Shown here one piece after another: positions 3,344 through 11,948 of a stretch of DNA of 11,948 nucleotides; the first letter of the stretch is position 1; each line of letters starts with the position of its first letter. The translations under genes and the position numbers were made by a program. This DNA comes from Ettlia oleoabundans (lineage: Eukaryota; Chlorophyta; Chlorophyceae; Chlamydomonadales). The notes beneath the pieces were generated by a model that made no database searches, was not told where the DNA came from, and worked only from the letters and a program-made list of their open reading frames with translations. The DNA lies in contig JAAMXP010002933.1 of assembly GCA_019693395.1 (NCBI GenBank), positions 1 to 11,948 of the forward strand. The letters run 5' to 3'.

Positions 3344-4550
3344 ATGTTCCGTACCCTCGGCTGCCTCAGGTTCCAGACTGCCGCAGGTGCGTTCATGGCA
3401 AGCTTCCAGCTGGGATTTGGGAGTAAGAGGGCCTTAAGGCGTCCTACTTTGCTAGGCGATGTTGCCTGGGTGATGAGAACAGAGCGCTGGGAACAAAGCC
3501 ACCTCCACTGGCGCCCCGCTATCCACCTGCCGCTCCTGCAACAGCGCCTGCTCATTTTGCCTGCCCTGCTGCTGCTTCTCTCATATCAAGTGCAGTTTCG
3601 AGTTATGCAAAACGCATGATGTCATCTGCACCTGGCAAGGACACGCAGGCAGATGCCACGAGGTGATGCTTGGGGCAGGCAGCAGTGTGTGGTGCTTTCT
3701 GTGCCGTGTTTCTTGCACTGATGCACTTTGGACACCGCAGTGGCTGACTTCTCTTGTGCAAGCCGGCCACTGCTACAGTGCAACTTCCAAGAGGTTCCTA
3801 TTGGCGGCAATTCCCATAGCAGGTGCAGTTTTTGTGCCAGTTGATTCCATTCCTACTATGTTCCATGCTTATGTTGGTATGATAGCTGATGTTCCATGCT
3901 ATTTTGGTAAGATAGCTGCTCCAACGTTATGTTTCCTTGCTTGCTTTATGACTAACAGTGATAGCGGCATTGATGGAGAAGGCTAACAAGGGGGAAGACA
4001 TGCAGCACGGCGAACAGGTATGCAGACGGTGCTTTGTTGACAATGGCCAACAGCGTAGTTGTCAATTACTTTTGTTGATGTCAATGAGACCCTGCTTGCT
4101 TGGATTGGGGAATGCTGGCACAGCGACAAATGGCTGCCCATCTCCATTACAAAAACGCAGCAGGGTGCGGCTGCTGCACATCCGCCATCTAGAGGCAGCG
4201 ATAGTAGCAGCAGCGGCAGTGGCAGCAGCGCAGTTGAGGGCAACAGCGGAGGCGATGGCCGCTTCAAGGCTACTGCCAAAGGAGGAGTGACCAGCCATGG
4301 TGTTGAGATTGATCCTGCTAACCCGCTGCACAAGATGCTACCCGAGACGGACTGTGAGTTCTGCCTGGAGACAAGAGAAAAGCTGTGGGGGATGGTGAAG
4401 AGCATGAAAAAACCGACAGGTGGTGGTGGCGGCAGCGGCTCTGGCAGCAGTGCGAGGGGCAAGGATGCTGCTTCACCTCCGGCCACTGAGCAAGGGGATG
4501 CTGCCTCTCCGGGCGGTGCTGAATCTGCAGCAAACCCTGGCTTGTCATAG
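3344..4550 (+). CDS. Tentative small mitochondrial-type protein of unknown function (5 exons)
   Basis: Proposed exons: 3344-3386, 3596-3662, 3779-3822, 3959-4017, 4161-4550; together 603 nt, 200 residues plus TAG. Intron phases are 1, 2, 1, 0 and all borders are GT/AG. The joined N-terminus (MFRTLGCLRFQTAAVSSYAK) is rich in Arg, Ser and Ala without acidic residues, as in mitochondrial presequences. A short hydrophobic helix follows (KRFLLAAIPIAVIAALM, about 44-60), then a charged stretch. The last exon has Ser/Gly-rich low-complexity linkers flanking a compact block, NPLHKMLPETDCEFCLETRE, with a CxxC pair, and a Gly/Ser/Ala-rich tail. I do not recognise the family. The model rests on frame continuity and splice signals only, so internal borders may be wrong. 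In particular the last exon could start at 4059 instead of 4161, adding 34 residues (LSITFVDVNETLLAWIGE and onward). That piece has more A/T at third positions than the rest, so I treated it as intron. Confidence 0.4.
3858..3918. repeat. 30-31 bp tandem duplication inside an intron
   Basis: Copy 1 at 3858-3888 and copy 2 at 3889-3918 both begin ATGTTCCATGCT and end GATAGCTG; between these they differ by one indel and a few substitutions. The stretch is AT-rich compared with its surroundings and lies in the proposed third intron of the plus-strand gene at 3344-4550. Confidence 0.75.
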
Positions 4551-5131
4551 GAAATTTAATAGCAGTGCCAGTCTACGTCCAGTAACCAATAGTGACTCAA
4601 TACCTTAAGGCTGGGTAGAACAACCGATTCAGGTTGGGCAACCATTGGGATTCGAGTCAGCGACGGCAGCAGGGCAGTACAGCGGACGATGTACATTAAG
4701 TGCGGCAGTAAGTTAAAATTTTGATGCCCCTCACGACCTACTTGTGTATGCTCTTCAACGCAGTGCTCCTTGTCTTCACACGGCGCCATGCACGCTGCAA
4801 TTCGGCTGGTCAGCCCAGCATTTTCACTTCGTGCTGCACGCTCCCCGTGGCCTTGGAAGCCAAGAGCACCAGCTTTTCGGGTGTCGGGTTCCCGACCGGA
4901 CGCAAGGAAGCCACTAAGCCGAACAAACAACGCTCAGGCAACTTCCGGCACCAACCAAAGGGCCCCAGGTGTGCGGGCTTCGTCCGAACACTGGTACTAA
5001 ATTAGGCGAGGGTTTTAGGAATCGCCCAGCTGCCGAGGTGCTACGCCCAGCATGCCGGCTTGCCCGCTGGGCGCTGGCGGTGGGAGCCCTCTTCACCCGC
5101 TTGGCCCGAGGAAGATCCTGGTAGTGCCACC
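4551..5131. other. Intergenic region: 3' end of the upstream gene and promoter of alkB
   Basis: About 580 bases between the TAG at 4548-4550 and the alkB ATG at 5132, both genes on the plus strand. It should contain the 3' untranslated region of the first gene and the promoter and 5' leader of alkB. No TGTAA polyadenylation signal, TATA box or known site was recognised. A short inverted repeat, GTCGGG-TT-CCCGAC, is at 4883-4896. ORFs here have no recognisable protein similarity. Confidence 0.4.
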
Positions 5132-8049
5132 ATGGTCACTCGTGCACCCGTTGCCTCCTGGAAGCCATCCAGTATGTTTCCTTTCCTTTTATTGCATCTG
5201 TTTCCCGAGCGCAGATGTGCCTTCGCCGCACTCAAAAGTTGCCGACACAGCCCTTGGCGCCCTCTTCCTCCGCTTGCTGCCCGGCCACCTCTACTACAGC
5301 TTCGCTTTTCTGTACCCCATTGCCACCGCTGTGGCGGGTGTGGGAGCTGTTTGGGCACCTTCCATGGTTCAATACATCGCTGCACTGCCAATGATTCAGG
5401 TGCGCACCAGAGTTGGCATCTGGCAGCTGGCAAAGGTGTTTTTATGTGTTTTTATGTAACCGCTTTCATTTTGACCCGTTGGTGCCTTCTACTGCCACCA
5501 CACCTGCTCCAAAACCAAGGATCTGTTGTTGCTCCTGCTGCAGGCGATGGGTCCCCTGGGCCCGCTGCTGCATCACCTGGCTACCACACAGCCTGCTGCC
5601 ACGCTACTGTCTGTGCTGGTTTCTTTGCTGACCGCTTACCTGGCCTTCATTGTGATGCCACTGGGCGATGCTGTGCTGGGGCGTGACCTGCGAAACCCAT
5701 CAGAGGTAAGATGCCTCTAATCAAGGCCATGTATGCCAGCTAGGTATGCTGTTTGCCAGGTGATATCCGATTGCATGTGTTGCCTGCTGAACTGCTCTCA
5801 GGTTGCTCAAACGGCTTGGCTGTGCATTTCCATGTGTGGTTAATCGCCATCATTCGTGTCTGTGTGGGTCATGCCAATCTCAACCTCAGCTGCCTGCGGC
5901 TCCCTGCCACTGTCACATTACAGGAGGAGGCTGTTGCTGATGCCCAGAATGCGCTGTACCGTGCAGTGCTGCATGCCTACTGCCCCATGCACATCGTGGT
6001 GCTCTGTGGCCTCTGTCACCTGCTCAGGTGTGTTGTCACCTCGGCTTTGGCAGGCTGAGCTGCAGCTCACGGGCAAATACTAGCGCCTACACATTGTTGC
6101 TCTCATTCATGATGGTCTGTTCTTGAAAGAAGACAGTTGATTTATGTTTGCATATGCTGAGTCTTCTTCTGGCTGTGTTGGTCGCGTTTATGTGCAGCAC
6201 CACCGCTATGCACCCCTTGGCCTTCTTGGGCACCACTATCAGCGCGGGGATCTCTGGTGGCATACTTTTTACCACCGCCCATGAGTTGCTGCATGGAACC
6301 CACTGGCTGGATAAGCTGGGCGCAAACGTGCTGCTGGCGGCTGTTGGGTACATGCACTGGTGAGCCTTTGCAGCAGGCCACACTCGTGGCTGGGTCCATC
6401 AGTTCTGCTATGTTTGCACTGAAGACCTACTATTCGCTTGTTGTTTGGCCAAACAGGAGGTTACATTATGCCACAGGGGCCTTCAGGCTTGTCAGACTGC
6501 TGTCAACATCAACCTGTTGCCTGCCTTCCGCCTGTCGTGTGTAGGACTGAGAGCCACCTGGCGCATCATAAGAAGGTGAGGGTGTATGGCACTTGCTTGG
6601 CAGCAGGGAAGGGGCCTGTATGCGACATGCAGGCTTAGACACTGGCTCCCCAGCTATGCAGGTGGCTACGCTTGAGGACCCGGCGTCTGCTCGAAGAGGC
6701 GAGAGTCTTTATTCCTTCATCCCCCGCAGGTAGGTGGGGCAGTGTGTTTGCTGCTTTTCGCACAAGCTGGCTTACTTGAAGCATAGGCTGACATACTTGA
6801 ACCAAATGGACTCTAGTTGCATCAATGATAGCGCAACCTGCTATGATTGTACGCGATGTCTTGCTTCGAACTGCAGTATGTGGGGGAATCTCGTGGATGG
6901 GTACAAGATCGAGGCACAGCGTCTGAAACGGAGGAAGATTCCGTGGCTAAGTTTGAGGAACAGGTGTGTTTCAGCCGCTCAAATTGAATCATGGGATATC
7001 AAGATCTGCTTTTGCTGTTCATGACACACAGCACGATGTCATGTTATGATCTAGTTTGACCCTTGATTGGCCTGGGTTGCTCCCCCTTTGTTCGCCTCGT
7101 GCAAATGCAGAATGCTGGCCTGGATTCTATGCCCTATTGCGCTGGCATCCGCTGTCTTCCTGGCATATGGCTGGAAGGGGCTGGCGTTCGCTGTTGGACA
7201 GGCTCTGGTCAGGTGCACAGCAACTGCTCAATGCTGGGGTTTGGAATTGCAATGTTGTTAATTATTAGCAGTGAAAATCGGCGTGCTGCTATCAAGGGGA
7301 TATGCCCTTACTGCCTGGCTGTTCGCCTCCTACATCGTTGACTTTACTGCTCCATTACTTTCCATTTTGCAGCATCGTCATGTTGGAGACTGTCAACTAC
7401 ATCGAACACTACGGCCTTCAGCGCAAGAAGGGTGCCGATGGCAGGTGATGGCTCCTCCTGCATTCCGCTGCCTTTGTTACCCAGTAGTTCAGTTATTGTT
7501 GTCATTTGTGTGTTGCTGTGCTACTCATCAAGAGACTCAAGACTGCTGCACACCCCAGAAGAACTTGTCAGTGAATTGCTGTTGGTATGGTCCTGCAGGT
7601 ATGAGAAGGTGGGCCTTCAGCACTCCTGGAACTGCACTTGGATGGTCACATCTTGCTTCACCTTCAGGTTGCAGCGCCATGCTGACCATCACATGTGGGG
7701 CAACAGGACTTACCAGGTGCGCCGCAGCAATGCGAAACAACATGCTCTGGAAGGGAGGAACTGTAGTTCACCATTCGTTTTGGGACAGCAGGCAGCAACA
7801 TGGCTGTTCCATTCCATTCCATTCCAGCAACAACCTGAAGCAGAGTAATCTGCAAATTCGTTGTTCATGGCCTCCTTTTATCTGCAGCTGCTACGCGACA
7901 TGCCCGACTCGCCGCAGCTGCCTGTATCATACCCAGCTGCCATGATGCTGGCAGCCATCCCGCCCCTGCACTTCAAGGTCATGGATGCTCGGATCGATGC
8001 CTATCACGCAGCCCGGCAGCAGCGAGCTGAGGCTACAGCGGTTAAATGA
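5132..8049 (+). CDS. alkB: AlkB-type alkane 1-monooxygenase, integral-membrane di-iron hydroxylase (12 exons, complete)
   Basis: Exons: 5132-5171, 5215-5399, 5544-5705, 5924-6027, 6162-6359, 6545-6575, 6662-6729, 6877-6963, 7111-7212, 7373-7444, 7599-7716, 7888-8049; 1329 nt, 442 residues plus TGA, near the usual AlkB length of about 400. The start ATG lies in GCCACCATGG. The family hydroxylates terminal methyl groups of alkanes or fatty chains in a membrane, taking electrons from rubredoxin or a similar carrier. Hydrophobic segments lie at about 25-62, 76-118, 165-203, 215-228 and 293-325. Box 1 is HELLH (204-208), box 2 ESHLAHHKKVATLEDPAS (H234, H237, H238), then the AlkB signature NYIEHYG (334-340), HSWN (358-361) and LQRHADHH (374-381). 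These give the nine histidines expected as iron ligands. The C-terminus (SPQLPVSYPAAMMLAAIPPL, then VMD) also follows AlkB. No rubredoxin domain is fused and none is encoded nearby. Oddities: 31-nt exon 6, a 43-nt first intron, box 1 without the usual following Lys, and HxxHH rather than HxxxHH spacing in box 2. Substrate unknown; fatty acids or alkanes are both possible. Confidence 0.95.
6545..6575 (+). other. alkB: 31-nt microexon carrying histidine box 2 of alkB
   Basis: The intron before ends GTGTGTAG (AG at 6543-6544) and the intron after begins GTGAGG (6576). The exon completes a TGG codon split after two bases and encodes TESHLAHHKK. The next exon continues directly with VATLEDPASARRGE, the conserved block that follows box 2 in AlkB. 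Leaving out this exon would break the frame and remove three of the nine iron ligands. Confidence 0.85.
7807..7826 (+). repeat. (TTCCA)4 microsatellite in the last alkB intron
   Basis: Four perfect copies of TTCCA lie between exons 11 and 12 of alkB, preceding the acceptor at 7886-7887. Simple repeat, no function implied. Confidence 0.85.
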
Positions 8050-11869: not shown

Positions 11870-11877
11870 GTGAGTTG

Positions 11878-11910
<33 letters not shown>

Positions 11911-11948
11911 CCCGTGCGTGTGTGTGTGTGCGTGCCCGTGCGTGTGGG
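11870..11948 (+). other. UFD1: Start of UFD1 intron 4, cut by the right edge
   Basis: GTGAGT follows the codon for Asn182 and the rest of the window is GT-rich intron sequence. The next UFD1 exon, normally starting with the acidic and aromatic block after IETDC, lies outside the window. Confidence 0.85.
11878..11946 (+). repeat. GT microsatellite with a 24-bp higher-order period
   Basis: A run of GT dinucleotides begins directly after the UFD1 donor site. It is interrupted twice by CGTGCCCGTGCGTG, at about 11907 and 11931, which gives a 24-base repeat period laid over the GT run. It reaches the window edge, so its full length is not visible. Confidence 0.9.

Follow-up and report, generated by a model that had tools for sequence, protein, structure and literature searches.

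The window analysed here is an 11,948-nucleotide stretch of the green alga Ettlia oleoabundans, contig C848 of a 32.9-megabase assembly of 1230 contigs, and it carries on its forward strand an intron-rich gene resembling alkB, an alkane monooxygenase family known mainly from bacteria. Joining the exons from the ATG at 5132 to the stop ending at 8049 yields 1293 bases and a protein of 430 residues with no internal stops. The 11 introns between the 12 exons are 43–218 nucleotides long, all have GT–AG borders, and together use phases 0, 1, and 2; ten of them hold at least one in-frame stop if the frame is continued, intron 1 being the one without. A tblastn search with the relative P0001 finds exons 2–12 and does not recover exon 1 (5132–5171). 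An earlier note on this DNA had proposed a 12-exon gene encoding 442 residues with the motifs NYIEHYG, LQRHADHH, and VATLEDPAS; the exon number is borne out by the joining and the splice borders, and for exons 2–12 by homology as well, and all three motifs are present in the joined protein, but its length is 430. All ten matches of the window protein in its own genome lie inside the window, so that one copy is seen at that sensitivity. The exons of the gene, those from exon 2 onwards each supported by exon joining and tblastn, are as follows.

4788 to 4968, forward strand: candidate true first exon, beginning MHAAIRLVSPAFSLRAARS, transit-peptide-like (composition and comparison with algal N-terminal extensions)
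5132 to 5171, forward strand: exon 1 of the earlier model, the alternative to 4788 to 4968 (exon joining; not recovered by homology)
5215 to 5399, forward strand: exon 2
5544 to 5705, forward strand: exon 3, its Ala occupying the position that limits chain length, Trp55 in Pseudomonas AlkB (also alignment; PMC10113152 and PMC10110569)
5924 to 6027, forward strand: exon 4
6198 to 6359, forward strand: exon 5, with box 1 HELLHG (also ligand alignment)
6545 to 6575, forward strand: exon 6, with box 2 ESHLAHH, HxxHH (also box-2 and ligand comparison)
6662 to 6729, forward strand: exon 7, VATLEDPASARRGE
6877 to 6963, forward strand: exon 8
7111 to 7212, forward strand: exon 9
7373 to 7444, forward strand: exon 10, with NYIEHYG, Glu and His ligands (also ligand alignment)
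7599 to 7716, forward strand: exon 11, with HSWN and LQRHADHH, three His ligands (also ligand alignment)
7888 to 8049, forward strand: exon 12, with stop TGA

The relationship to AlkB is upheld by sequence matches to solved structures, structure matches, relatives, and a tree. The closest solved structures by sequence, and the only two at an E value of 0.001 or below, are those of the Fontimonas thermophila enzyme (FtAlkB), 8f6t (E 2.7e-66) and 8sbb (E 1.9e-60). Pfam assigns the protein to PF00487 at 1.7e-32, and NCBIfam gives no family for it or for five homologues; a PF00487 search of the own genome returns four matches, none of them in the window, since that search works exon by exon and misses the gene. 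The protein has the AlkB fold, and structure comparisons give clear matches to AlkB only in the 50 Foldseek and 50 VIA rows shown; no SCD1-like desaturase structure is named in those rows, an absence that does not exclude such a fold, and a paper search gave no identity for VIA rows 3 and 4 (8xks_K and 8xqw_M).

In AlkB, the metal ligands are nine histidines and Glu271 (PMC10113152), and the nine histidines are described as invariant across species (PMC10110569). Residues were compared between 31 algal rows, including the window protein, and 97 others (17 proteins and all 80 genome loci), and all ten ligand positions are kept in 31/31 and 97/97 rows, respectively. Box 2 of the window protein reads ESHLAHH and so has the spacing HxxHH, one residue shorter than the HxxxHH of EHxxGHH, a difference missed in the earlier note. 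The HxxHH spacing occurs in all 37 readable members of a clade of 38 proteins (P0034 lacks that stretch), whereas HxxxHH is found in all 122 other proteins and all 89 loci, nine of the latter from a viral collection; no non-algal HxxHH protein was seen among these 122 proteins and 89 loci, which represent the best-scoring matches only. Lys or Arg follows box 1 in 0/31 algal rows versus 96/97 others, and both the Glu before the box-2 His and the Gly before its HH pair are missing from all 31 algal rows and present in all 97 others. Box 2 EHxxGHH together with box 1 HELxHK/R is a signature of canonical AlkB, and the algal clade has neither. Leu at the Leu315 position (PMC10110569 numbering) is retained in a single algal row, versus 95/97 others.

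In the predicted structure of P0001, box 2 lies inside a single helix (residues 257–267); the site of the missing residue within the box depends on the alignment, while the spacing of the histidines does not. As differences in His spacing among superfamily members are offset by the conformation of the helices (PMC10110569), a working site in the algal protein is plausible. Judged by sequence, these proteins represent a trebouxiophyte AlkB-fold branch without the two signature motifs of bacterial AlkB, in which every metal ligand is kept. Nine IMG/VR contigs (L096–L104), the viral-collection loci mentioned above, include near-copies and encode HxxxHH AlkB; they possibly represent host DNA in viral bins.

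The protein searches contributed the best 120 of 477 and the best 120 of 305 rows, most without an organism name, and the genome scan the best 80 of 576 relatives; the proteins number 160 in total, 38 of the algal clade and 122 others. Twelve relatives are named among the matches listed, from Micractinium (three), Nannochloris, Myrmecia, Coccomyxa (three), Apatococcus (two), Parachlorella, and Elliptochloris. Membership of the Trebouxiophyceae was confirmed for five of these genera and is assumed for Coccomyxa and Myrmecia. Twelve of the 38 clade proteins carry such a name, and the rest were placed by similarity, 30 of the 38 also by the tree. Against an algal profile, full-length clade members score at least 497 bits and the best HxxxHH protein 376; short clade fragments score 453, 395, and 375 bits, overlapping the HxxxHH range, and P0034 is not listed. 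P0122 (Parachlorella, 943 residues) and P0123 (Elliptochloris, 954 residues) carry other Pfam domains beside PF00487, presumably MatE and methyltransferase, and are perhaps gene-model fusions.

Besides the window protein, the 88 rows of the tree are 30 of the 38 clade proteins, 17 of the other 122 proteins, and every second genome locus (40 of 80); box-2 columns were excluded, and the tree is unrooted, so that it names no donor. A homology search and tree had been proposed in the earlier note as a check, and the 31 algal rows indeed form one side of a branch supported at 100/100 among AlkB relatives, the stem of which measures 0.86 changes per column. Within the clade, the window protein belongs to a Micractinium group (100/99), and a Coccomyxa–Elliptochloris group is supported at 100/96. 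The trebouxiophyte branch is placed outside the canonical bacterial AlkB group, and the gene was probably inherited within trebouxiophyte algae. The old acquisition envisaged in the earlier note gains support from the range of named Trebouxiophyceae that carry the gene, but not from the intron phases on which it had been based.

One alternative is that, after the shortening of box 2, the enzyme became a modifier of fatty acyl chains or other lipids (a desaturase or hydroxylase acting on a fatty acid, wax, or pigment) and no longer uses free hydrocarbons. The uniform HxxHH spacing of the readable clade members and the near-complete loss of the substrate-cavity Leu at position 315 would fit such a change, although altering Leu315 in FtAlkB has little effect on activity (PMC10110569). 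In FtAlkB, the alkane terminus is held by Leu274 and Leu318 (PMC10110569), whose counterparts in the 430-residue protein are Leu318 and Leu362; Leu occupies both positions in 31/31 algal rows. The retention of these residues and of the NYIEHYG Glu, together with clear structural matches to AlkB only, argues against a lipid modifier, which is considered unlikely.

The earlier note had named HMA1, ERH, and UFD1 as eukaryotic neighbours, and Pfam supports ERH (PF01133), UFD1 (PF03152 and PF24842), and, for the first, a P-type ATPase piece (PF00122). A GT-rich simple repeat (11875–11948) lies directly past the last UFD1-like frame, at the window end. Upstream of the alkB-like gene, an open frame without a Pfam match spans 4059–4550 and includes the following feature.

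4269 to 4409, forward strand: segment of the neighbouring gene upstream, with homology to residues 85–131 of P0006, the Micractinium conductrix AlkB gene model (81% over 47 residues, E 5e-22)

P0006 also matches 4149–4511 less strongly (42%, E 5.5e-19), and the later part of P0006 matches the Ettlia AlkB exons, so the two genes are adjacent in M. conductrix too and were probably fused there by annotation. Bacterial contamination or recent transfer from bacteria might be considered, since studies of the family have dealt with bacterial members; the introns, the eukaryotic neighbours, the adjacency in Micractinium, and the single algal clade with the stem described above leave this explanation a negligible probability. 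These observations rule out contamination, as the earlier note had argued, and the Ettlia gene is a genuine nuclear algal gene.

The first exon of the earlier model is doubtful, as its 43-nucleotide intron is half the length of the next shortest (86 nucleotides). The ATG at 4788 opens 181 bases up to a GT donor (GTGTGC; exon end 4968), the phase of which, 1, matches exon 2, and the resulting model has 477 residues; a third possible start is the ATG at 5052, from which, with intron 1 unspliced, the frame is open and in phase with exon 2. Arg makes up 15% and Ala 18% of the first 62 residues of the 477-residue model, Asp accounts for about 3%, and Glu is absent; the stretch 4788–4968 probably encodes a transit peptide. 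Long basic N-terminal extensions occur in several of 23 algal rows, as measured with a crude anchor pattern (P0001, 65 residues; P0012, 107; P0016, 72), and in the predicted structure of P0001 the predicted local distance difference test (pLDDT) score is below 50 at residues 1–43. P0001 is an uninterrupted 469-residue frame on a 1712-base sequence, which, for a gene so rich in introns, suggests that the record is a transcript.

The position that governs chain length (Ile54 in PMC10113152, Trp62 in PMC10110569, Trp55 in the GPo1 enzyme) corresponds to Ala109 of the window protein, an assignment in which the 8f6t sequence index and the paper numbering differ by 3 and with which the 8sbb alignment agrees; Ala is found here in 25/31 algal rows, and small residues at this position accompany longer alkanes (PMC10110569). 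The likely reaction, to judge from the residues kept, is hydroxylation of a long aliphatic chain in the manner of AlkB, and the enzyme would act inside the alga on the terminal carbon of alkanes or alkenes above about C12. The most likely substrate would be alka(e)nes that fatty acid photodecarboxylase forms in the chloroplast. This enzyme, too, is encoded in the genome: an exon on another contig (G000:C830, L111) is identical to the Chlorella enzyme at 89/98 residues (E 1.2e-53). The alka(e)nes formed by this enzyme are C15–C17. That they are the substrate is a tentative proposal, given somewhat less than an even chance. In Chlamydomonas, the photodecarboxylase makes the only known hydrocarbon, more than 90% of which resides in thylakoids and the content of which varies over the cell cycle, and the commentary describing this names no enzyme that removes algal hydrocarbon (PMC8260119); a plastid alkane hydroxylase would fit these observations. 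A plastid location is rated as evenly balanced. A GMC oxidoreductase at G000:C645:18543-20688 might oxidize long-chain alcohols; its candidacy as a fatty alcohol oxidase was set aside, the tested exon giving general FAD-domain matches only.

A further alternative, that of the earlier note, is that the enzyme hydroxylates alkanes taken from the environment and stands outside internal metabolism. The fold and ligands are the same as in bacterial alkane monooxygenases, and an anthracene-induced "alkB" transcript has been reported in Ulva lactuca, the best match of which is a Chryseobacterium protein with 44% similarity and 32% coverage (PMC9530894). The comparison with alkane-degrading Prototheca is not supported, as 33 exon-level light-harvesting matches and rbcL mark the genome as photosynthetic, and no Prototheca-named protein is among the best 120 rows listed per search, most of which are unnamed. 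The trebouxiophyte genera concerned occupy varied habitats. The presence of the gene in several of them weakly favours a housekeeping substrate, and an environmental role is judged quite improbable.

Six Arg residues of FtAlkB face rubredoxin (PMC10113152). The Arg169 position is deleted in 31/31 algal rows and holds Lys or Arg in 76/97 others; position 215 is Lys or Arg in 10/31 versus 86/97, and position 143, variable in both groups, in 7/31 versus 37/97, while positions 148, 284, and 287 are positively charged in 30, 28, and 27 of the 31 algal rows. The window protein has Arg at 215 and Lys or Arg at 148, 284, and 287, so that four of the six positions remain positive and the docking face seems changed, not abolished; the electron donor may dock somewhat differently from the bacterial rubredoxin AlkG. 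Pfam finds no rubredoxin domain in the window protein; rubredoxin matches occur at two places in its genome, and frames near one of them resemble a plastid lead and a C-terminal hydrophobic stretch, which may belong to one gene with it.

On balance, the gene probably encodes a working AlkB-fold membrane diiron monooxygenase of a trebouxiophyte branch, probably inherited within algae and outside canonical bacterial AlkB, a reading given slightly better than even odds on sequence evidence. An internal chloroplast cycle, in which light-driven photodecarboxylase turns fatty acids into alka(e)nes and the HxxHH AlkB, with a plastid donor instead of AlkG/AlkT, hydroxylates them toward fatty alcohols and acids, is a more speculative and somewhat unlikely extension. 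Several points weigh against these proposals. Many desaturases likewise have HxxHH in box 2, so a change of reaction is conceivable, and the chemistry could differ given the loss of the box-1 Lys/Arg, of the box-2 Glu, and of one docking Arg position. Apatococcus, assigned by NCBI to the Chlorellaceae, groups with Coccomyxa, Elliptochloris, and Myrmecia (99/96) and not with other Chlorellaceae, and two algal tree rows have an odd letter make-up, both of which complicate a simple reading of the tree. Extensions are shorter than 30 residues in 6 of the 23 algal rows measured (P0002, P0003, P0004, P0018, P0020, and P0021), so targeting is not uniform across the gene models. At the chain-length position, the 97 other rows have Val in 54 and Ala in 11, so a small residue there is not special to algae. 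No Chlamydomonas-named protein is among the best 120 rows listed per search, most of them unnamed; as the photodecarboxylase works in Chlamydomonas without a listed AlkB relative, the two enzymes may not go together, and hydrocarbon removal there may need another route.

Compared with bacterial AlkB (F. thermophila 8f6t and 8sbb; Pseudomonas GPo1), the algal protein has HxxHH instead of HxxxHH in box 2, Gly/Ser instead of Lys/Arg after box 1, no Glu before the box-2 His, no Gly before HH, and a deletion at the FtAlkB Arg169 position; its gene is nuclear and spliced, and the protein has no rubredoxin domain. With membrane fatty acid desaturases and hydroxylases of the PF00487 superfamily, it shares the Pfam family, but its clear structural matches are to AlkB only, the fold of which differs substantially from those of SCD1 and Scs7p (PMC10110569). 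Database-named alkane 1-monooxygenases of Micractinium conductrix (62% identity), Coccomyxa sp. Obi (46%), and Nannochloris sp. 'desiccata' (52%) fall in the same clade with the same HxxHH box 2 and differ from the window protein by ordinary divergence. A literature search that covered few subscription papers found no functional study of the algal clade. Algal homologues, some named alkane 1-monooxygenase, are already known from databases; new are the clade-wide change around the predicted active site and, as a hypothesis, a possible link to internal hydrocarbon turnover. The Ettlia AlkB-like enzyme is a candidate for the fate of hydrocarbons made by algae and may recycle those that such algae produce themselves. 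AlkB structures have been solved for bacterial enzymes. A eukaryotic clade that keeps their fold and ligands but has a shorter box 2 and altered residues next to it offers a natural experiment on spacing and surrounding charges.
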